In this document: positions 41,508-52,226 of the stretch, in pieces
Position numbering within the stretch: the first letter of the stretch is position 1
Layout: each line of letters starts with the position of its first letter
NCBI GenBank assembly: GCA_903907865.1
Contig: CAIVPR010000126.1
Span: forward strand, 1-64,000
Direction: 5' to 3'
Length of the DNA: 64,000 nt
Origin: an uncultured Acidobacteriia bacterium
GTDB taxonomy: Bacteria > Acidobacteriota > Terriglobia > Bryobacterales > Bryobacteraceae
Made by a program: the position numbers and the translations under genes
The notes under the pieces: model-generated
The model's database searches: none
The model's input: the letters and a program-made list of their open reading frames with translations, nothing else
Told to the model about the DNA's origin: nothing

Positions 41508-41639
41508 ATGGCTCCACGAGTGAATGAACTCAAGGAGTACACAGTTCCGAGGTTGACATGCCTCGGGCCCATCCAGTGGGTTGTGCGGGCCGGGCTAACT
41601 CCCGGAAGTTCTGACAGGGACGGAAACACCGCTTCATGA
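41508..41639 (+). CDS. Lasso-peptide-like RiPP precursor, 43 aa
   Basis: The leader has Tyr11, Pro14, Leu16 and Gly20 in the spacing YxxPxLxxxG (EYTVPRLTCLG), the motif bound by the RRE domain of lasso maturases. A possible core begins at Gly29: GLTPGSSDRDGNTAS, 15 residues, with Asp36 at core position 8, right for a Gly1-Asp8 macrolactam. The usual Thr at leader position -2 is Arg here. The last residue is Ser, the site phosphorylated by HprK-like kinases in paeninodin-type clusters. The stop overlaps the cyclase ATG (ATGA). There is no good Shine-Dalgarno. The peptide is soluble and ordinary callers may miss it. Confidence 0.65.
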   Translation: MAPRVNELKEYTVPRLTCLGPIQWVVRAGLTPGSSDRDGNTAS

Positions 41640-43435
41640 ATCGAACTCTCGCGCCGCTGCTAGGATTGGTGGAATTCTCGCCCAACCCCACATGGCTCCA
41701 CACAGCGGCACGGGAGTTGCAACTCGATACGGCAACCGAGTCCGGCGCGTTCCTAGCGGGCACGGAGTTACCTCAAAACGGCGGGCACACGCCCCGTTCA
41801 CCGTATTTCCTCACTGCCGATATCTTTCTCTTCAACCCAGATGAACTCGTGGCGGCCCTGGGTTCCGACCTGCCCGTCAGCGCCCACAAGGACATCGTGT
41901 TGGCGGCGTATGCCAAATGGGGTGTCGATTGCGCCCCGCGGCTTGAGGGGGAGTTGTCCTTCGCGATCTTCGATCCCGTCCAACAACACCTGTTCTGCGT
42001 CCGCGATCAATTTGCCCGCCGCCCGTTCCTCTATTGGCATGGCGGAACCAGACTCGTGATCGGCACGGAGTTGGAGGATCTGCTCCGTGTGCCGGGCGTG
42101 CCCCGTGCACTCAACAGGCCCCTGCTGGCGGCGACGGATGTTCCGTTGGGGCAGTTTGTGCTGGAAGGCCAGACGTACCACGCCGGCATCATGGGTCTCC
42201 CCTTTGGATGCTACGCGATCGCCAGCGAACGCGGATTCAAATTGACCCGCTACTGGGCACCCGGGCCGGGCAGCGCAACCGTGCCGAAGAACCCGGAAGA
42301 TGCCTACACGGAATTCAGGGACCTGATCGTCCGTGCGGTGGAGCGACGCGTAAACCGTCCGTGCGGCATCGGCATCCTGCTGAGCGGCGGCTTGGACTCC
42401 GGCTGCATAGCAGCCGTGGCCGCGAAGGTATTGGAACGCCAAGGCAGGACCTTGACGGCACTGACCACGGCCTCGCCGCCCAAGGATCTCGACCGGTTTC
42501 CCGATGAGCGCAAGTTTCTAGAACCGTTTCGAGCGTATCCGAACATCCGTTTCGAGGACTGCGTTACCGACGACAGCGGGCCTTTCGACTGGCTGGACAA
42601 CCCCGCCAAGTTCACCGCGATGTGCCATCCCCACCCGATGTTCCATGCCACATTCGCAAGTGTGGAACGCATGAAGGCTGCCGGAACCGGCGTGATCCTG
42701 ACAGGCATCGGGGGAGAAGCTGGTGCCACGTACTATGCGCGACGATTCTTGGCTGAAATGTTTTTGGCCGGCCGCTGGCAACTCGCGCTGCGCGAGGCGA
42801 GGATGCGTGCCGCACTCACCGGATTCCCGGCCCTCCGCCTGGTTCTGGGGTCCTTTCGAACCTTGGTGTTCCGCAGGACTCCAGACACGCCGCTGTTCAT
42901 GCTCACACGCGGCTTTGCCGCCGAATCGGAGGTGGACGCACCGCCACTGCCGATCCCCTTCCAGTCGGAAGTGGAGAACATGGCGTCCTGCGCCACCATA
43001 TTTGCCCGGAGGCAGAGTGTGCGTCCAAACCGGTGGCTTCTGCCAGTTCAAGAAGCGACGCCGCTGTTGGATAAGTCCGTGCTGGAGTTCTGTATTGCGG
43101 CACCTGCCGAACTCAGGGTCCGCGACGGCCACCTGCGCTATCTTGCGCGCGGTGCCATGGCCGGGGTCATGCCCGAGAGTCTCCGGCTGCGCACCGACAA
43201 GATGCCTTTCATTCCCAACTACCCGGAGCGCTATACCGCGCAACTACCCGCCGCAAAGGCATTTGTCGCGCAGATCCGGCGGTCCGACCCCGTCCGCTCC
43301 GTGGTCGATGTGCCCCGGCTAGTGAGGGAACTGACGCCGCCGATAGGTGCCGAAAACTGCGGTAGACTCATGATGCTCCCGAATACGATCCGACTGATCC
43401 AGTTCCTGAGACAGTTCCCCGAGTTCCAGTCCTAA
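41636..43435 (+). CDS. Asparagine-synthetase-like lasso cyclase (C protein)
   Basis: 599 aa. The N-terminal half has the class II glutamine amidotransferase fold but no Cys2 nucleophile (MNRTLAPLL), so it cannot hydrolyse glutamine; this is usual in lasso cyclases and beta-lactam synthetases. The synthetase half has the PP-loop SGGLDS at residues 250-255 and a GIGGEAG loop where asparagine synthetases have GGDE. The C-terminal helical part has LLDKSVLEFCIAAP and LRLRTDKMPF, typical of the lasso C protein. It would adenylate the core Asp and form the macrolactam. It is coupled to the precursor and lies 10 nt before the kinase. Confidence 0.78.
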   Translation: MNRTLAPLLGLVEFSPNPTWLHTAARELQLDTATESGAFLAGTELPQNGGHTPRSPYFLTADIFLFNPDELVAALGSDLPVSAHKDIVLAAYAKWGVDCAPRLEGELSFAIFDPVQQHLFCVRDQFARRPFLYWHGGTRLVIGTELEDLLRVPGVPRALNRPLLAATDVPLGQFVLEGQTYHAGIMGLPFGCYAIASERGFKLTRYWAPGPGSATVPKNPEDAYTEFRDLIVRAVERRVNRPCGIGILLSGGLDSGCIAAVAAKVLERQGRTLTALTTASPPKDLDRFPDERKFLEPFRAYPNIRFEDCVTDDSGPFDWLDNPAKFTAMCHPHPMFHATFASVERMKAAGTGVILTGIGGEAGATYYARRFLAEMFLAGRWQLALREARMRAALTGFPALRLVLGSFRTLVFRRTPDTPLFMLTRGFAAESEVDAPPLPIPFQSEVENMASCATIFARRQSVRPNRWLLPVQEATPLLDKSVLEFCIAAPAELRVRDGHLRYLARGAMAGVMPESLRLRTDKMPFIPNYPERYTAQLPAAKAFVAQIRRSDPVRSVVDVPRLVRELTPPIGAENCGRLMMLPNTIRLIQFLRQFPEFQS

Positions 43436-43445
43436 AGGGTGTGGA

Positions 43446-44324
43446 GTGCCAACATACTGCGCCTACGCGCTGACCATCGATACCCCGTTCGAAGTTCCGG
43501 AGTTGCAACCGGTCCGGCTCCACCCCCCTGCGCGGCCGGACATCGTGATCAGCTTGGGCGAGGGTGCTCCACCCGCGCCGAATCCGACCGCAGATGAAAC
43601 AGTCGCTACTGTCGCAGGCATGCCGATGGTGTTCCGGCAGGGCGGCCAAGTCATCGTATATCCGAAGGAGAATGCCGATCCCGCGCAGTTGGCGGCATTG
43701 CTGGTAGGCCGCGCCCTCTCCAACGCATTCCGGCAACGCGGCTGGTTGCCCTTGCATGCGAGCGCTGTCGTCCTGGAAGGAATCGACGGAGTGGCGCGTA
43801 CGGTCTTGTTCGTCGGGGAATCGGGTGCAGGCAAGTCCACAACCGCCGCCGCCTTCCATGCCCGGGGGCACCGGGTGATCGCCGACGATCTCGCGGTACT
43901 ACAGCAGGTGGGCAGCAAGTGCGTCGTGCGACCGGCGTGGTCGAGAGTCCGGCTCAACCCGGATTCGTTGGCGGTTCTGGGGCAGGAGGAACTGCCTTCC
44001 GTATTCCACATTGACAAGCAGAGTGTCGAACTGGGGCCCGGTAGGCTAAGGCGACTGTTTGCGGTCGACCGGATCTACGTCCTGCACTATGGGCACGGGT
44101 TGGAGTCTGCGCGTCTTCCAGCGGCGGACGCAGCCAGGGTGCTGGATCAGTTTTCCTTTCCACGCAAACGCCACGGCCTACCCGACACGGTGCTGTCCGG
44201 GATCCGGCTGTCCGCCGGCGTGGCAGCGAAAGTGCAAGTCTGCAACTTGACCAGGCAACGCTCGCTGGACGCGTTGGCCGAAGTTGTGACGTTCGTGGAA
44301 GAGGAGTTGAAACTGCATGCCTGA
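43446..44324 (+). CDS. HprK-like serine kinase of a RiPP cluster
   Basis: 292 aa from a GTG, with AAAGG about 9 nt upstream. Residues 1-100 are the variable N-terminal part of HprK-related proteins. The P-loop is GESGAGKST (124-132), preceded by LPLHASAVVLEG and followed by HRVIADDLAVL, where the Asp pair matches the HprK catalytic region. In paeninodin and related clusters such kinases phosphorylate the C-terminal Ser of the lasso precursor. The precursor here ends in Ser, which fits. The stop overlaps the start of the oxygenase gene by 8 nt. Confidence 0.78.
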   Translation: MPTYCAYALTIDTPFEVPELQPVRLHPPARPDIVISLGEGAPPAPNPTADETVATVAGMPMVFRQGGQVIVYPKENADPAQLAALLVGRALSNAFRQRGWLPLHASAVVLEGIDGVARTVLFVGESGAGKSTTAAAFHARGHRVIADDLAVLQQVGSKCVVRPAWSRVRLNPDSLAVLGQEELPSVFHIDKQSVELGPGRLRRLFAVDRIYVLHYGHGLESARLPAADAARVLDQFSFPRKRHGLPDTVLSGIRLSAGVAAKVQVCNLTRQRSLDALAEVVTFVEEELKLHA

Positions 44325-45465
44325 CTTCGAGTTCCTGGCCTCGCTGGTCGCCCCCGCTCCGTTGCAGGTTTTCCTGGATTGCTTCACGCAACGGCGGCAT
44401 CTGCATTTGGCCAACCGCGCGCCAAGCCATTTCGACGACGTGCTGTCCCTGGCCGATATCGACGGCATGTTGGAACTGGGATCCTATCCCGCGGCTTTCA
44501 TCAATGTTGTCGCCAACGCGGCGAAGGAGCCATTCGGGGAGTGGGCCGACGAGGTGAAATCCGGCCGCGGGACGGCTTTGGTGAGCAACCCCGAAAAGCT
44601 GCTGAACTCATACCGCAACGGGGCAACGCTGATTCTCAACCGGGCCGTGTCGGCCATTCCCAAGCTTTCCCGCGCATGCCGACGGCTGGCGGAAGAGTGC
44701 GGGCTCACCACCGGGGCCAACATCTATGTGACGCCGCCGGGGGGACAGGGCTTCGCCGCCCATGGCGACGAGCACGATGTCCTGGTTCTGCAAATCCATG
44801 GCAAGAAGCACTGGACCATCCATGCCCAGGAACCGGTCGGCCTCGTTTCCCTCGAAGTGACGGCGGGCGACCTGCTGTTTATTCCCAGGATGATGTTTCA
44901 TGAGGCGCGGTGCTCGGAGGAGCCATCCGTGCACGTGACCATATCGTTGACGCCCGTCTACGGCTTTGACCTGCTGAGCGAATTGGCGCTGGTCGGACAG
45001 ACACATCCATTGCTGCAGAATCCCGTTCCCTCGCGCCTTGCCACGGCTGCGGAACGCGACGCGTTCGAGGGTGCGTTTGCCGAAGCCGTGACCGGCATGG
45101 TGCGGGAGAATCCAATTCCCAGCCTGTTGGAACGTCACTACGTCGCGCGGGTCAAGAACCAACGCCCGGGCTGGCCTGGGCGGTTCTCGGACGCAATCCA
45201 TGAAGGCCAACTGCGGCCGGAGTCGGTCCTGCGGCGAAGGAGCAACGCTTTGGTCAGCGTGGTCCGCGACGGGCAGGGCGGTGTCGTCAGTTTCTCGGAC
45301 AAACAGATCACGGTGCCGAATTTCCTGCTGCCGTCACTGGACCAGCTGCTCGGGGAAGACGCGTTCCGCATCCGGGAGCTGAACGGATTGATGACGGAGC
45401 AGGGTAAGGTCGCACTGGCAAAACGTTTTGTCGAGGCCGGGATTCTAACAATCGTGGCGGTCTGA
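44317..45465 (+). CDS. JmjC-like cupin Fe(II)/2-oxoglutarate oxygenase
   Basis: 382 aa. The N-terminal LVAPAPLQVFLDCFTQRRHL and the Fe site His149-x-Asp151 (AHGDEHDVLVLQI) with His195 (MFHEARC) match cupin-4/NO66-MINA/YcfD-type protein hydroxylases, which hydroxylate His or Arg side chains. A helical dimerisation part and a C-terminal winged-helix-like domain follow (about 305-382: SFSDKQITVPNFLLPSLDQL, IRELNGLMTEQGKVALAKRF). Position and overlap in the cluster suggest that it hydroxylates the precursor, perhaps Asp or Asn in the tail; that is inference. The winged-helix tail could stand in for the absent RRE protein. Confidence 0.72.
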   Translation: MPDFEFLASLVAPAPLQVFLDCFTQRRHLHLANRAPSHFDDVLSLADIDGMLELGSYPAAFINVVANAAKEPFGEWADEVKSGRGTALVSNPEKLLNSYRNGATLILNRAVSAIPKLSRACRRLAEECGLTTGANIYVTPPGGQGFAAHGDEHDVLVLQIHGKKHWTIHAQEPVGLVSLEVTAGDLLFIPRMMFHEARCSEEPSVHVTISLTPVYGFDLLSELALVGQTHPLLQNPVPSRLATAAERDAFEGAFAEAVTGMVRENPIPSLLERHYVARVKNQRPGWPGRFSDAIHEGQLRPESVLRRRSNALVSVVRDGQGGVVSFSDKQITVPNFLLPSLDQLLGEDAFRIRELNGLMTEQGKVALAKRFVEAGILTIVAV

Positions 45466-45745: not shown

Positions 45746-48202
45746 ATGCCGCTCCGGGCCAGGATTTACATCGCGCTGGTGCTTGCGCTCGGGTTCTCCG
45801 GGTTTGCGCTGGAGATCGTCCGTTTCACGTCGCCCGACCCCATCCTGTTCTGGCTCTACTTCATCGTGACGGTCTTGACGTCCGGTCTCAAGGTCCGCCT
45901 GCCGATGGTGTTCTCGACGTTCTCCGTCAACTTCCTCTTCATCCTGGTGGGCATTGTGCAGTTCAACCTGCCCGAGGCCATGGCCATCGCGGCGGCCGGG
46001 ATCTTCGTGCAATGCCTGTGGCGCCCCAAATCGAAACCGCAGCCGGTCAAAATCGCATTTAGCGTAGCGTCGATTTGCGCGGCCGTGCTGGTCGCGCACC
46101 GTGTCTTCCACGCCCCCGTGTTCGGTGAGATGGGGATGGGCGAGCAGCACCCCGTCCGCATGATGCTGGCCGCCGTAGCCTACTACGTCGTCAACACGGG
46201 ACTGATAGCCGGCGTGATCGGCCTCACGGAAAACAAGTCGGTCTTCCACACTTGGCGCGACACCTACTTTTGGGTCCTCCCCTATCACTTGGTGGCGGCC
46301 TCGGTGGCCTGGCTCATCGTCGTGTTGAGCCATCAGGAGAAGTGGCACGCGACGCTGGTGCTGCTGCCCTTGGTGTACTTCGTGTACCGCTCGTACCGGA
46401 TGTACTTGGAACGGCTGGAGAAAGACAAGCGCCACGTCGAGGAGATTGCCGGACTGCACCTGAGGACGATCGAAGCCCTGGCGCTGGCGATCGAGGCCAA
46501 GGACAGCACGACGCACGAACACCTGCAGCGCGTCCGCGTGTACGCAACCGAGATCGGCAAGGAAGTCGGCATGGGCCAGAATGACTTGGACGCGCTGCAG
46601 GCGGCCGCCTTGCTGCACGACATCGGCAAGTTGGCTGTGCCGGAACACATCATCTCGAAGCCGGGCCGGTTGACGCCCGAAGAGTTCGAGAAGATGAAGA
46701 TCCACCCCCTTGTGGGTGCCGAGATCCTGGAGGAAGTCAAGTTTCCCTATCCGGTGGTGCCGATCGTAAGGGCGCACCACGAGAAGTGGGACGGCTCCGG
46801 GTATCCGTACGGCTTGGCGGGCGAAGAGATTCCCCTCGGCGCGCGCATCCTCTCCGTGGTCGACTGCTTCGACGCGCTGGCGTCGGACCGGCAGTACCGG
46901 CGGGCGCTGCCCTTGGACCAGGCGATGGGCATCGTGATTTCGGAAGCGGGCAAGAGCTTCGACCCTGTCATCGTGGACATCATCCAACGGCGCTACGTCG
47001 AGTTGGAGAAGATGGCCATCTCCGGCGGCGGCGAAAAGATCAAGCTTTCGATGGACGTCAAGATCGAACGCGGCTTGGCCCCGGCCACCGGCTTCGAGGA
47101 AGCGGCGGCACCGGAGCCGAAAGCCCTTCCGGCCCCCGGCCAGGAAGGTGCCGACCCGCTGGCCTCCATCGCCGCAGCCACCCAGGAGGCGCAGGTCCTC
47201 TACGAACTGACCCAGGATCTTGGCAATGCGCTGAGTCTCCAGGAGGCGCTGGCGTTCGTTGGCGTGCGGTTGAAGCGTCTGATCCCGTACGATACGGTGG
47301 CGGCCTACATCCGCCGCGACGACAAGCTCGTCCCGGAGTACGTCAGCGGAGAAAACCTGCGGCTGTTCACGGCGCTAGAGATTCCCGTTGGACAGGGGCT
47401 CTCCGGCTGGGTGGCGGACAACAACAAGCCGATCCTGAACGGCAATCCGTCGGTCGAGGCCGGTTACCTGAACGACCCCACCAAATACAGCACGCTGCGC
47501 TCGGCGCTGGCGGTGCCGCTGAACGGCGTCAACGGGTCGCTAGGCGTACTGGCGCTCTACCGGGCCGAGCGGGACGCATTCAGCAAGGAGAACCTCCGCA
47601 TTCTCCTCGCGATCAGTTCGAAGGTGGCCCTTGCCATCGAGAACGCGCTGTCGCACAGGCTTGTGGATACGTCGATCACAACCGACTATCTGACCAACCT
47701 GCCCAACGCGCGGTCGCTGTTCATGACGCTGGACCACGATGTGACCCGGGCCCAGCGCGCCGGAGCCACCATGGCGGTCGTGGTGTGCGATCTGGATGGA
47801 TTCAAGCTCGTCAACGACAGGTTCGGGCATCTGACCGGCAACAAGGTCCTGCGCGTGGTAGCCGACGGCCTCAGGTCGCGCTGCGACGATGCCGACTACG
47901 TGGCGCGCATGGGTGGCGATGAATTCGTCGTGCTTGTGGGCAACGCGGATCCAGAAGCCATTGACACGAAAATCGCGCTGATGCGGGATGTCGTCCTCAG
48001 GGCCGGGGAAACCACTCCCGAGCCCAGCGTACTCTCCCTCAGCGTCGGAGTGGCCGTCTACCCTGTGGACGGCAAGGACGCCGAGGAACTGTTGGGCGAA
48101 GCCGACCGCCGCATGTACAAGAGCAAGCGCATGCGCAGGCGCCCGGGTTTGGCCGAACCGATTCCCGCTGCCTCCGTGGCCTTGGTGGCGCAAGCGTCAT
48201 GA
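45746..48202 (+). CDS. Membrane HD-GYP / GAF / GGDEF cyclic-di-GMP protein
   Basis: 818 aa. An N-terminal membrane sensor of six or seven segments (residues 1-215) precedes the HD-GYP phosphodiesterase domain (about 240-415): HD at 291-292 in LLHDIGK, and GYP at 352-354 in WDGSGYPYG. A GAF domain follows (about 465-625: LSLQEALAFVGVRLKRLIPY), then a GGDEF diguanylate cyclase (about 640-795) with exact GGDEF at 723-727. Both signatures look intact, so the protein may both make and degrade c-di-GMP. The stop overlaps the ATG of the ABC permease. The start is chosen from TAGTTT. Confidence 0.88.
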   Translation: MPLRARIYIALVLALGFSGFALEIVRFTSPDPILFWLYFIVTVLTSGLKVRLPMVFSTFSVNFLFILVGIVQFNLPEAMAIAAAGIFVQCLWRPKSKPQPVKIAFSVASICAAVLVAHRVFHAPVFGEMGMGEQHPVRMMLAAVAYYVVNTGLIAGVIGLTENKSVFHTWRDTYFWVLPYHLVAASVAWLIVVLSHQEKWHATLVLLPLVYFVYRSYRMYLERLEKDKRHVEEIAGLHLRTIEALALAIEAKDSTTHEHLQRVRVYATEIGKEVGMGQNDLDALQAAALLHDIGKLAVPEHIISKPGRLTPEEFEKMKIHPLVGAEILEEVKFPYPVVPIVRAHHEKWDGSGYPYGLAGEEIPLGARILSVVDCFDALASDRQYRRALPLDQAMGIVISEAGKSFDPVIVDIIQRRYVELEKMAISGGGEKIKLSMDVKIERGLAPATGFEEAAAPEPKALPAPGQEGADPLASIAAATQEAQVLYELTQDLGNALSLQEALAFVGVRLKRLIPYDTVAAYIRRDDKLVPEYVSGENLRLFTALEIPVGQGLSGWVADNNKPILNGNPSVEAGYLNDPTKYSTLRSALAVPLNGVNGSLGVLALYRAERDAFSKENLRILLAISSKVALAIENALSHRLVDTSITTDYLTNLPNARSLFMTLDHDVTRAQRAGATMAVVVCDLDGFKLVNDRFGHLTGNKVLRVVADGLRSRCDDADYVARMGGDEFVVLVGNADPEAIDTKIALMRDVVLRAGETTPEPSVLSLSVGVAVYPVDGKDAEELLGEADRRMYKSKRMRRRPGLAEPIPAASVALVAQAS

Positions 48203-49101
48203 CGGCTTCGGGGCGGGGCGTCGTCGCCCTCGCTTCCAAGCTTGCCCGCAGCCTTGCGGGCCTGATCGTTATCGTGCTGCTGGGCGGGTTTGCGGCTGCG
48301 GCGCTGGTAAGGTACAGCCCGGGTTTTGACGTCGACGAAAACGCTTGGAACACGAAGGGCGGAAGCTCGGCCGCGGAGGCTTCGCGGGTGCGACGGGCGC
48401 AGGAAAATGAACTGCTGCCTTTCTATTGGCGGTATCTGAAGGCCGCTGTCAAGGGCGACTTCGGGGAATCGGAATCCTACCGCGTTCCGGTGGCGGAATT
48501 GTTGCAGGATCGGGCCCCGGTAACCGGCCGGCTCGCCGCTTGGGGCGTGGCAGGGGGAATCCTCATGGCTGCGCTCTGCGGGTGGCTGGCCGTCTGGCCG
48601 CGCGTACCGGTCTTGGAGCTGGTTGTTTCGGGCTGGGTGGCACTGCTTCTGGCGGTCCCGCCCGCTGTTCTAGCGTTGGCATTCTTCTTCCGCGAGGCCC
48701 CCATCCAAGTGGCGGTCGCCTTGGCGATCCTGCCGAGGGTTTTCGGCACCATCCGCGCGATCTTGCGCGATGCCCACGAATCCCCCGCCCTCCTGGCGGC
48801 CCGCTCCCGCGGACTGGGAACCGGCGTCCTCGCTTGGCGCTATGTCCTGGTGCCGATGGCACCGCGCATAATGGCGCTGGCGGGTGTGGCGGCGATGGTC
48901 GCGTTTGGTGCCCTGGTTCCCATCGAGGCGCTTTGCGACGTACCCGGAATCGGGCAACTGGCATGGAAGGCGGCACTGTCGAGGGACCTTCCGCTGCTTT
49001 CGGCCCTGACTCTGATCGTGACGTTCGTGGTGGCCTCGATCCAAGCCGCCGGGGAGCTGATGACGCCTGAAACCATTCATTCCAAAGAGGTTGCGGAATG
49101 A
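48199..49101 (+). CDS. Peptide ABC transporter permease, DppB-like
   Basis: 300 aa. Coupled to the c-di-GMP gene by ATGA overlap. Six transmembrane segments are predicted. The binding-protein-dependent permease EAA loop is recognisable near residues 193-225 (ESPALLAARSRGLGTGVLAW, then RYVLVPMAPRIMALAG). The N-terminus contains the DppB-like periplasmic RYSPGFDVDENAWNTKGG segment. It would form the heteromeric channel with the next permease. The substrate is unknown and expected to be a peptide. Confidence 0.82.
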   Translation: MTASGRGVVALASKLARSLAGLIVIVLLGGFAAAALVRYSPGFDVDENAWNTKGGSSAAEASRVRRAQENELLPFYWRYLKAAVKGDFGESESYRVPVAELLQDRAPVTGRLAAWGVAGGILMAALCGWLAVWPRVPVLELVVSGWVALLLAVPPAVLALAFFFREAPIQVAVALAILPRVFGTIRAILRDAHESPALLAARSRGLGTGVLAWRYVLVPMAPRIMALAGVAAMVAFGALVPIEALCDVPGIGQLAWKAALSRDLPLLSALTLIVTFVVASIQAAGELMTPETIHSKEVAE

Positions 49102-49877
49102 TCTGGCGCAGGATGGCTTTGATTTTTCTCGTCCTGGTGGGGCTCAGCGCGGTGCTGGCCCCGAAGGTCGCGCCCTATTCATACTCAGAGCAGTTCCGCG
49201 ACTCGCCGAACGCGCCCCCCGGCGGTAAATTCCTGCTGGGCACGGACGACATGGGCCGGGACCGCTTCTCCCGGCTGCTCTACGCCACCGCCGTTTCCGT
49301 CACACTGGCACCGGCGGCCGCCGCGCTGTCGGTACTGCTGGCCCTGGTTGTCTGTGCCTTCCACGGACGTGTCCTTTCGGGCCTAACGACCATCGGCATG
49401 TCGATCCCGTGGATGTTCCTATTCATCATCCTGAGGGCGGAGTTGCCCCTGAACACGGCTCCCGAGGTGTCGGTGGTGCTGACCTTCGCTCTGATGGGGG
49501 TCGCGGGTTGGGCCGGACCGGCGCGGGTGCTGTCGGGGTCGATTCGAGAGATGATGGAAGCGGGATGGATGTTGCACGCACGGTCGGCTGGGATTGCGCG
49601 GTGGCGGATCGCCGCAGTGTACGCGTGGCCGCACTTGCGGTCGGTGGCCGCAGCCCAGTTCCGGGCCTTGGCACCGGCATACGTGCTGGCGGAGGCGAGT
49701 CTCGGACTGCTGGGACTGGGAGTGGCCGAGCCCGTCCCCAGTTGGGGCAACCTGCTGCGCGACCTGCAGCATCCCGACATGGTGAGGGAAAACCCGGCGT
49801 TGTTGGCCCCGCTCGTATTATTGATGTTGTGCCTATTGGCGCTCGAAGCATTTTCCGTCCGGGAGTCCGTCCAGTGA
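49098..49877 (+). CDS. Peptide ABC transporter permease, DppC-like
   Basis: 259 aa. Overlaps the previous stop. The N-terminal DppC motif FLLGTDDMGRDRFSRLLYAT is diagnostic, followed by four to five transmembrane segments and the EAA loop (EAGWMLHARSAGIARWRIAA). The family's LLGLGVAEPVPSWGNLL region is present. It forms the second half of the transport pore and is translationally coupled to the binding protein, which starts GTG one base before this stop ends. Confidence 0.85.
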   Translation: MIWRRMALIFLVLVGLSAVLAPKVAPYSYSEQFRDSPNAPPGGKFLLGTDDMGRDRFSRLLYATAVSVTLAPAAAALSVLLALVVCAFHGRVLSGLTTIGMSIPWMFLFIILRAELPLNTAPEVSVVLTFALMGVAGWAGPARVLSGSIREMMEAGWMLHARSAGIARWRIAAVYAWPHLRSVAAAQFRALAPAYVLAEASLGLLGLGVAEPVPSWGNLLRDLQHPDMVRENPALLAPLVLLMLCLLALEAFSVRESVQ

Positions 49878-51457
49878 AAGCCATAGCCTGCCTCGTGTTG
49901 TTTGCCAGTCTCTCGGGTGCCGCGTCCCAGCAGGAGCTGCGTTTTGCCCTGCACAGCGACCCCAAAACCTTCGACCCGCTCCACGTCGAGGACGCGGCTT
50001 CCGAGGCTGTCCGATACGTCACCGCGGGGGTCCTGGTGCGGGTCAACCGCGCGACCGACCAAGTCCTGCCGGAACTGGCAGAGTCTTGGAAGATCATTGA
50101 GGGTGGACGTGCCGTCGCTTTCCATTTGCGCGCCGGGCTGAAGTTTTCCGACGGCACGCCCCTGACGTCGGCAGATGTGGCGAGGACCGTGGAACGGGCC
50201 CTCGACCCCAAGGAAAATTCCCCGGCGGGCGATTCCCTGCGAACCGGCCAAGCCGTACCCGAGGTCAAGGTTGCAGGCCCGCTCGACATCACGATTCGCT
50301 ATGCCGCGCCCAAGCCCGGCATCGACCGGCTGTTCGACGGCATCGGAATCGGCCCGACCGGCAACGCCAAGCTTCCCGCTACCGCTGGGCCGTACTTCGT
50401 CGCCGAATTCCACCCCGGCACGTTTCTGCTCCTGAAGCGGAACCCCAACTACTGGAAGCACGATCCGGCTGGCCACCAGTTGCCGTACATCGACGCCATC
50501 CGGATCGATATCCAACAGAATCGAGACATCGAGCTCACCCGCTTCCTCCGTGGTGAACTGCATTTGATCCCGAAGATCGACCCCGACAGCTTCGACCGTG
50601 TCGCCAAGGAGAAACCCGGTTGGGGGAAGAGCGCGGGTGCATCGCTCGATTCCGAATTCCTATGGTTCAACCTTGCGCCGGCCAAGTCGATCCCGGAGTG
50701 GAAAAAGAAGTGGTTCCAGTCGACGGCGTTCCGACACGCTGTCAGCCAAGCGATCCATCGCGAAGATATCGTGGCGCTCGACTACAAAGGCCACGCCCAT
50801 CCAGCCGCAGGGCCCATTTCGACGGCCAACAAGTCGTGGTTCAATCCGGAACTCAAACCGTTGGCGGCCAATCCGGCAAGGGCCGCGAAGTTGCTGGCCG
50901 GGGACGGTTTCCAACTGCGCGACGGGGTGTTGAGGGACCGCGACGGCCACGTTGTCGAGTTCTCGCTCATCACAAATGCCGGACACCGGCCTCGCGAGAA
51001 GGCCGCAGCCCTGATTCAGAATGATTTGAAGAAGGTCGGCATCCAAGTCAATATCGTCACGTTGGACATGGGGTCGCTACTGGAACGGATCCGCAAGAGT
51101 CTCGACTACGAGGCCGCGCTGCTTGGGCTCAACCTGGAGGCCGACCCGATGGAGTTGATGAACATCTGGCTCAGTTCTGGACCGGAGCATTCTTGGTGGC
51201 CGTCAGAGAAGACGCCGGCGACCCCTTGGGAAGCGCGAATCGACGCGTTGATGATGGAGCAGGCGTCGTCCACCTCAATGGCGGTTCGAAAGAAGGCAGT
51301 GGCGGAATTCCAGCGCATCGCGGTGGCAGAGGAGCCGATGATCTTCCTCGTCAATCCGGATTTCCTGGCTGCGGTGTCGCCGGTGGTAAAGGGCTTGCAG
51401 CTTTCCGTGGCGCCGCCGCAGGTTTTGTGGAATGTCGAGTGGCTCAAGCTTGAGTAG
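49874..51457 (+). CDS. Peptide ABC transporter substrate-binding protein
   Basis: 527 aa. GTG at 49874 overlaps the DppC stop (GTGA). The signal peptide is VKAIACLVLFASLSGAASQ. SBP_bac_5 family hallmarks are RFALHSDPKTFDPLHVEDAA near the N-terminus, DGTPLTSADVARTVERAL, AGPYFVAEF and AVSQAIHREDIV. It captures peptide (or similar) in the periplasm and delivers it to the permeases. The 3' end overlaps the ATPase gene by 26 nt. Confidence 0.88.
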   Translation: MKAIACLVLFASLSGAASQQELRFALHSDPKTFDPLHVEDAASEAVRYVTAGVLVRVNRATDQVLPELAESWKIIEGGRAVAFHLRAGLKFSDGTPLTSADVARTVERALDPKENSPAGDSLRTGQAVPEVKVAGPLDITIRYAAPKPGIDRLFDGIGIGPTGNAKLPATAGPYFVAEFHPGTFLLLKRNPNYWKHDPAGHQLPYIDAIRIDIQQNRDIELTRFLRGELHLIPKIDPDSFDRVAKEKPGWGKSAGASLDSEFLWFNLAPAKSIPEWKKKWFQSTAFRHAVSQAIHREDIVALDYKGHAHPAAGPISTANKSWFNPELKPLAANPARAAKLLAGDGFQLRDGVLRDRDGHVVEFSLITNAGHRPREKAAALIQNDLKKVGIQVNIVTLDMGSLLERIRKSLDYEAALLGLNLEADPMELMNIWLSSGPEHSWWPSEKTPATPWEARIDALMMEQASSTSMAVRKKAVAEFQRIAVAEEPMIFLVNPDFLAAVSPVVKGLQLSVAPPQVLWNVEWLKLE

Positions 51458-52226
51458 CGCGGACGAATTGCTGAAGTACCGGCTGAACGCCCGCTATGGC
51501 GCGACGCCGGTATTGCGGGAAGTCGAAGGGCGGCTGGCGGCGGGTGAAATCGCGGCGCTTGTGGGACTCAGCGGGTCCGGCAAGAGCACGCTGGCGTTGG
51601 CGTTGCAGCGGCTGCTGCACTACCGGGGCGGACGGGTGGACGGCAGCATCGTGCTGGAAGGCACCGAGTTGATGGGGCTTTCCGAATCCGCGATGCGCTC
51701 GATCCGCGGACGCCGGATTGGATATGTGCCGCAGAGTCCGGGAACGGCGTTGAATCCGAAACTGCGGGTGCGGACGCTGATCGACGAGACTTGGTCGGCG
51801 CATGCGCGCGGACGGATGGATGATGCGGCGCGCCAAACTTTGCTGGAGCGGGTGCAGTTGCCCGGCACAGGTGCATTCCTGGACCAACGCGCCGGAGAAC
51901 TGAGTACCGGGCAGGGCCAGCGGCTGCTGATCGCTCTGGCGATTTTGCACGGACCGGCGTTGCTGATTGCCGACGAGCCGACGAGCGCGCTCGACGCGAT
52001 CACCCAGGCGGCGGTGCTGCGGTTGTTTGCCGAATTGAACCGCGAGCTGGGGACCGCGATCCTCTTCATTTCGCACGACTTGCTTTCGGTGGCGTCCATT
52101 GCTCACCGGGTCGACATTCTGCATGAGGGAAGCGTAGTGGAGTCGGGCCCGCCGGGGCGAATCTTCGGCGAGCCCGTGCATCCATTCACGCGCGACCTGG
52201 TGGACGCAATGCCAAAGCGGCCTTAG
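51432..52226 (+). CDS. Peptide ABC transporter ATPase, DppD/OppD-like
   Basis: 264 aa. Walker A is GLSGSGKST, the signature is ELSTGQGQRLLIALAILH (family LSxGQ), Walker B is LLIADEPTSALD, and the His switch is SHDLLS. The 3' tail GRIFGEPVHPFTRDLVDAMP is OppD-like. The operon carries only one ATPase, so it would work as a homodimer or pair with a distant OppF. It ends in a hairpin shared with the convergent gene. Confidence 0.88.
   Translation: MSSGSSLSSADELLKYRLNARYGATPVLREVEGRLAAGEIAALVGLSGSGKSTLALALQRLLHYRGGRVDGSIVLEGTELMGLSESAMRSIRGRRIGYVPQSPGTALNPKLRVRTLIDETWSAHARGRMDDAARQTLLERVQLPGTGAFLDQRAGELSTGQGQRLLIALAILHGPALLIADEPTSALDAITQAAVLRLFAELNRELGTAILFISHDLLSVASIAHRVDILHEGSVVESGPPGRIFGEPVHPFTRDLVDAMPKRP

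Follow-up and report, generated by a model that had tools for sequence, protein, structure and literature searches.

A probable lasso-peptide pathway dispersed over three loci, with HprK-like kinase and JmjC-type oxygenase genes in its main operon, in an uncultured Bryobacteraceae bacterium

The first 64000 bases of the 276-kb contig C126 from an uncultured Acidobacteriia bacterium, hereafter the window, carry at 41508-45465 four plus-strand genes packed in one tight operon, which encode a short precursor peptide (A1), a macrolactam cyclase, a HprK-like kinase and a JmjC-type oxygenase. In this study, we propose that this cassette is likely the main locus of a lasso-peptide pathway that is dispersed over three loci of the genome and includes phosphorylation and hydroxylation of A1. 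Judged from sequence comparisons, the genome (G000; 7.5 Mb, 98% complete) very probably encodes a lasso peptide that carries a phosphate and may also be hydroxylated. The initial annotation had suggested looking for the same four-gene order elsewhere, and it is indeed present in two relatives of the same genus, G017 (cassette L036) and G020 (cassette L037). The lasso assignment, the Val at position -2 of the leader and the kinase are of known kinds; the literature searched gave no example of a lasso operon with a JmjC/ribosomal-oxygenase gene or of a conserved three-locus layout.

Results

The precursor peptide and its core

Precursor A1 can be read as 43 aa from an ATG at 41508 or as 39 aa from a GTG at 41520. 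The GTG is common to all three cassettes and the ATG is not conserved, so the true start may be 41520 (41520..41639, plus strand). In phosphorylated lasso peptides the YxxPxL motif of the leader spans -17 to -12, with Ile/Val at -2 in Acidobacteriaceae (PMC10368454; this and the other papers cited are used in the excerpts available). With Tyr placed at -17, the A1 leader is VNELKEYTVPRLTCLGPIQWVVR and the predicted 16-residue core (41589..41636) is AGLTPGSSDRDGNTAS, consisting of the ring AGLTPGSSD, closed between Ala1 and Asp9, and the tail RDGNTAS. No Pfam or NCBIfam model matches A1, and the motif Y..P.L...G is found in 2 of the 655 small open reading frames (ORFs; 20-130 aa) of the window, A1 being one of them. 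Orthologous peptides ending in VNEPKEYSTPKLNFLGPIHWIVR-GGSNPGSADRDGLTTS (G017) and GGENAGHGDRDGLTTS (G020) occupy the same place in the two relatives; both conserve the leader motif together with the Asp of the ring and the tail DRDG-x-T-x-Ser. The YxxPxL leader, the small residue at core position 1 and the Asp/Glu at 7-9 that mark a lasso precursor are thus present in the window peptide and in both orthologues.

The G017 and G020 precursors differ in 4 of 39 residues, all of them in the ring (positions 3, 5, 7 and 8); the chance that four changes fall inside a 9-residue ring of 39 residues is 0.0015. At the nucleotide level, all four changes in the leader and the one in the tail are synonymous. 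As far as these two sequences tell, the pattern is one of a constant leader and tail and a variable ring. A chance ORF is ruled out by the orthologues in combination with this substitution pattern.

The initial annotation had drawn the core one residue off, as GLTPGSSDRDGNTAS with a Gly1-Asp8 ring. When 12 precursors of the genus are aligned under the Tyr(-17) spacing, V/I stands at -2 in all 12, Gly/Ala at core position 1 (Y+17) in 11 (the exception is a Lys in L082) and Asp at 8 or 9 in all 12, and the last residue is Ser in 11 and Thr in one. The set was picked by hand and holds the precursors beside the cyclases of the nine-row clade described below, that of L103 in G006 and those of three B1 loci; L044, L046, L047, L106 and the distant L145, L146, L152, L153, L156 and L162 lie outside it, and no precursor was found in L038 and L040 with the search pattern used. 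Spacing and alignment favour the core AGLTPGSSDRDGNTAS, with Val at -2 and ring closure between Ala1 and Asp9. The Gly1 register is improbable, even though Gly29 and Asp36 likewise allow a legal 8-residue ring, both orthologues carry GG and leave the register undecided, and the shift would turn core 1 of L082 from Lys into Gly. It would place Tyr at -18, against the published -17, and Arg at -2, and the same shift would let some of the other genus precursors begin with Pro or Ile and require Asp7 in L039, L042 and L043a.

The cyclase

The cyclase gene (41636..43435, plus strand) has its start codon in the ATGA that also contains the stop codon of the precursor; in L036 and L037 the cyclase frame begins without this overlap. 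Re-reading of the sequence bore out this and the other reading frames and gene junctions of the initial annotation. The protein of 599 aa is a homologue of asparagine (Asn) synthetase that begins with MNRTL, lacks Cys2 and matches PF00733 and GATase_7. Its best NCBIfam match is the lasso cyclase model NF033535 (204.8 bits, a sub-threshold score, vs 108.2 for asn_synth_AEB), whereas two Asn synthetases of G000 rank the lasso model and asn_synth_AEB in the opposite order (221.1 vs 481.1 for L199; 174.6 vs 374.2 for L203). In a 40-row tree the window cyclase forms a clade with those of L036 and L037 (100/100), nested in a nine-row clade of the genus (100/100), and a 100/99 branch splits this larger clade from each of the 7 Asn-synthetase rows; on the Asn-synthetase side of that branch there are also some lasso-type cyclases of other groups. 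An ordinary Asn synthetase is ruled out by the tree and the ranking of the NCBIfam models. The view of this gene as a Cys2-less, Asn-synthetase-like cyclase of a lasso-type system, already taken in the initial annotation, is supported by the tree branch, the conserved leader/ring pair and the kinase motif. Two outcomes had been named there as speaking against it, and neither was found: the cyclase does not group with Asn synthetases, nor do the orthologous precursors lack the motif and the ring pair.

Apart from five weak matches (open frames of 123-394 aa) that the survey leaves aside, the long PF00733 matches in G000, G017 and G020 besides the cassette cyclases are MCGI-type Asn synthetases, and a match on contig C58 of G017 is the end of an Asn synthetase. 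The window clade keeps SGGLDS and mostly carries GGE (or GE) at the position of the GGD(E) of other cyclases, a motif with a role in pyrophosphate/Mg binding; the replacement is seen in most cyclases of the genus clade formed by the window and L036-L043.

The kinase

After 10 nt follows a gene for a HprK-like kinase of 292 aa (43446..44324, plus strand) with the H..G..G.GKS..DD motif of lasso-precursor kinases. The residues H-G-G-G-K-S-D-D, published as lasso-kinase motif (PMC10368454), are found in all three orthologues, with a Ser-to-Asp spacing of 16 in each. Kinases of the paeninodin type modify the C-terminal Ser (PMC8498205), and by analogy the conserved C-terminal Ser16 is the predicted target here. 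Because the Bradymonas kinase phosphorylates Ser3 instead (PMC10368454), we infer this site rather than read it off; the C-terminal Ser in 11 of the 12 genus precursors is only suggestive of Ser phosphorylation.

The oxygenase

The fourth gene (44317..45465, plus strand) overlaps the kinase gene by 8 nt, an overlap kept in all three cassettes, and encodes a protein of 382 aa. It matches JmjC_2 (PF08007) with 70.1 bits (cut-off 22) and has an intact HxD...H iron triad of H149, D151 and H195, of which the first two are invariant and the third is at least 90% conserved in 24 rows. An AlphaFold model built from a 24-row alignment reached a predicted local distance difference test (pLDDT) score of 88.9, vs 38.1 from a 3-row alignment. 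The model matches human NO66 (Z 26.3), MINA53 (Z 25.0), Bacillus subtilis YxbC (Z 18.7) and E. coli YcfD (Z 17.4), and its residues ~305-382 form a C-terminal winged-helix-like part of three strands followed by helices. The PF08007 score, the triad and the succession of JmjC, helical and winged-helix-like domains place the protein in the JmjC_2/ribosomal oxygenase (ROX) family, and the fold is, as modelled, that of the ribosomal oxygenases NO66, MINA53 and YcfD.

The PDB titles describe NO66 and MINA53 as histidine hydroxylases and a YcfD-like protein as an arginyl hydroxylase. The tetrapeptide DRDG, the first residue of which is the ring Asp, occurs in the three precursors of JmjC cassettes and in none of the nine others (3/3 vs 0/9), and for this reason the target of the oxygenase is predicted to lie in the DRDG tail. 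There is no His in the window core (that of G020 has one, within the ring) and YcfD-like enzymes act on Arg; Arg10 of A1 is therefore the residue we predict to be hydroxylated, with Asp11 next.

The C-terminal domain was also compared, by profile (hhalign), with 24 B1 proteins drawn from hand-picked loci, which gave a weak match of 10-12% probability. Among the best 50 matches listed per structure search, which whole-length oxygenases occupy, there is no chain of a PqqD protein or a recognition element (RRE) of ribosomally synthesized and post-translationally modified peptides (RiPPs).

Matches to the oxygenase are found in 4 of 19 genomes of the genus, three within the cassette and one (G009) without a lasso gene in the 16 kb read. 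The family yielded 10 of 237 genomes (1e-6) and a phylum sample 16 of 396 (1e-8), G000 being counted in both; these searches scored the best candidates per genome (8 for the family, 4 for the phylum sample and 5 in another), and absences in them are not proof. No lasso cyclase lies near oxygenase relatives outside the cassettes in the 15 regions examined, a set that leaves out seven further relatives of genus g150 and the genomes G192 and G056. Conversely, a cyclase scan of the genome contigs gave a JmjC match in 2 of 23 loci, both of them known cassettes.

Two side observations concern tailoring oxygenases elsewhere. In another Acidobacteriota genome (L131:4581-8080, one of the 15 regions), a HprK-like kinase and a PqqD protein, with a radical-SAM-like ORF (recognized by eye) between the two, and a JmjC oxygenase are encoded together, possibly a different RiPP class that shares the same two tailoring enzymes. 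In L039, a 2-oxoglutarate-Fe(II) oxygenase (PF13640; 6890-7552) stands just before B1, precursor, cyclase and kinase of a related lasso cluster, raising the question whether a different oxygenase family plays the same role there.

Loci of B1 and B2

With local profiles, neither a B1 (RRE) nor a B2 (leader peptidase) gene was found in the 64-kb window, a point that the initial annotation overlooked; both are located elsewhere in the genome, together with a second precursor. Besides the cassette (locus I), locus II on contig C146 (5272-5737; L051) holds the sole lasso-type B1 found, with a second precursor, A2, and locus III on contig C126 (202468-202962), 157 kb from the cassette, the sole B2 found. 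B2 scores 60.6 bits with the lasso B2 model NF033537 (cut-off 33) and B1 54.3 bits with PF05402 (cut-off 23.4). A2 ends in KEYHAPRLTVLGDIHHLVA-APGEGHVDGDFGSS, with APGEGHVDGDFGSS as core, and has no cyclase nearby. Since one cyclase, one lasso-type B1 and one B2 were found in the genome, they probably serve both precursors. The one other PqqD match in G000 lies on contig C158 (L003, L052) beside radical-SAM-like (by eye) and HprK-like genes, which together make up another RiPP-like group.

The three-locus layout, with common neighbours, recurs in G017 and G020; in none of the three genomes do the biosynthetic genes lie in one cluster, as is customary, not defining, for lasso pathways. The locus of B1 and its precursor is kept in G017 (L102) and G020 (L101), with cores very different from that of A2, and its flanking proteins are about 68-96% identical between G000 and G020. 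The B2 locus compares at 51-52% (B2) and 44-63% (neighbours) with that of G020, and in G017, on a short contig, at 43% for one further neighbour. G017 and G020 each have one B2 and two PqqD proteins, one of which is adjoined downstream by a precursor (the PqqD search of the genus covered 13 of 19 genomes).

Among the neighbours of locus I, the upstream YHYH gene is common to G017 and the downstream HD-GGDEF gene to G020; downstream of the latter, the window contains oligopeptide-type ATP-binding cassette (ABC) genes at 48199-52226 (two permeases, a family-5 binding protein and an ATPase). Elsewhere in the genus, a secreted-looking protein is encoded near B2 or a lasso cluster (L034:7277-8404, L038:5656-6657, L040:8422-9450, L042:6594-7679), the L034 copy having a PEP-CTERM motif and 36-38% identity to the other copies over ~200 residues, and L038 (7379-8749) and L040 (6411-7802) have a sulfatase-family gene (PF00884) separating B2 from the lasso cyclase.

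Discussion

We have modelled a pathway in which the products of three loci would act on A1. B1 would bind the YxxPxL leader; on the linear precursor, the JmjC enzyme would hydroxylate a residue of the DRDG tail, most likely Arg10 and next Asp11, and the kinase would phosphorylate the C-terminal Ser16. B2, together with B1, would then cut A1 after Arg(-1), and the cyclase would link the amine of Ala1 to the side chain of Asp9 around the tail. A2 may depend on this cyclase, B1 and B2 for its maturation, too.

The single elements of this model have counterparts in described systems. The bsf cluster of Bradymonas sediminis and precursors of Acidobacteriaceae and Sphingomonadales (PMC10368454) share the YxxPxL motif with Tyr(-17), the V/I(-2), the split B1/B2 and the kinase motif; bsf, however, has its genes clustered and its product phosphorylated at Ser3, whereas the window has B1 and B2 elsewhere, a C-terminal Ser and a JmjC gene. 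Similar to the paeninodin-type lasso peptides (PMC8498205), a C-terminal Ser is the expected target of a HprK-like kinase, yet there the kinase gene is in the cluster and the available text names no oxygenase. In the case of canucin A, an iron/2-oxoglutarate enzyme, CanE, hydroxylates the linear lasso precursor with assistance of B1 (PMC8498205, PMC9266682); it acts on the C-terminal Asp, whereas the enzyme of the window is a JmjC_2 protein of the ribosomal-oxygenase type. JmjC-related enzymes of RiPP pathways are PbsQ, which adds 15.99 Da to its precursor, and BpmG, although these belong to a biphenomycin-type pathway for which the available text names no lasso cyclase (PMC12257519). NO66, MINA53 and YcfD share the whole fold, the iron triad and the C-terminal domain with the window enzyme; the gene of the latter, however, is part of a RiPP operon, and the identity in structural alignments is 14-21%. 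Fusions of RRE-like domains to JmjC PF08007 proteins were reported from algae and fish, and the bacterial homologues were placed in RiPP-like contexts (PMC12710340, 2025). Genes outside clusters have precedents in the peptidyl arginine deiminase of citrulassin (PMC8498205) and in unclustered lanthipeptide proteases (PMC8960859). The literature searched agrees with the remark of the initial annotation that the oxygenase does not belong to the standard enzymes of lasso tailoring: in the available parts of the papers, including PMC8498205, PMC9266682 and PMC13352647, no JmjC or cupin enzyme of a lasso pathway was found, and those on JmjC enzymes place them in RiPP-like (PMC12710340) or biphenomycin (PMC12257519) contexts, none in a lasso pathway. 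Neither was a three-locus lasso pathway met, papers on unclustered genes not having been opened for that question.

The nearest solved relatives of the oxygenase and its fold are those of ribosomal oxygenases, and its gene may be a housekeeping one that acts on ribosomal proteins and neighbours the lasso genes by chance. We consider this unlikely: a housekeeping role predicts wide presence, whereas the enzyme is found in few genomes of the genus, mostly in the cassette, and of the family, the 8-nt overlap with the kinase gene recurs in every cassette, and DRDG is limited to cassette members among the 12 precursors. That the cluster is decaying, with its B genes lost, and no longer works would fit a window without B1 or B2, the more so as B1 lies near the cyclase in most other lasso clusters of the genus examined. 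But the four reading frames run uninterrupted in G000 and G020, and in G017 up to the contig limit, one B2 and one precursor-adjoining B1 stay open in all three genomes, and leader and tail differ between G017 and G020 by synonymous changes only, which makes decay rather improbable. Finally, threading is invisible in a sequence, the GATase half of the cyclase is degenerate and GGD(E) reads GGE in most of the nine-row clade; there is hence a small chance that the enzyme forms another amide bond, e.g., that of a branched cyclic macrolactam, instead of a threaded lasso, against which the precursor anatomy, the B1/B2 partners and the kinase all agree with lasso systems.

Several points weigh against the dispersed lasso pathway that we prefer. 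Some scores stay below the cut-offs of their models: 204.8 bits of 525 for the cyclase (NF033535), 31.8 of 33.3 for the kinase in a local match (Pfam HPr-kinase), and 40.7 of 70 and 40.5 of 80 for B1 with the lasso PqqD models, its best NCBIfam matches. Thr is usual at -2, where A1 has Val. Within the cassette no exporter gene was recognized, and the ABC genes further downstream look like an oligopeptide uptake system. As the L036 and L037 cyclases are 86% identical, the three cassettes amount to about two independent samples, and the association of DRDG with the JmjC gene could reflect common descent. That B1 and B2 act in trans on A1 is something we infer from the finding of one of each.

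A bolder version of the pathway is speculative and, in our view, has a rather low probability. According to it, a ROX-type JmjC enzyme has been recruited to hydroxylate Arg10 (or Asp11), its C-terminal winged-helix domain would be a built-in RRE for the YxxPxL leader, and one dispersed set of cyclase, B1 and B2 would mature two precursors, one into a product bearing both a hydroxyl and a phosphate group, the other into a second lasso. A built-in RRE would account for the function of the cassette in the absence of a nearby B1.

The correlation between DRDG and the JmjC gene offers a directly testable substrate site. If the proposal holds, lasso peptides that are both hydroxylated and phosphorylated could result, and the action of a ribosomal-oxygenase-like enzyme on a free RiPP precursor would connect the modification of ribosomes with the tailoring of natural products. 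Genome mining for lasso peptides usually relies on adjacent precursor, B and C genes. A conserved pathway that is spread over three loci could score low in such searches or escape them.

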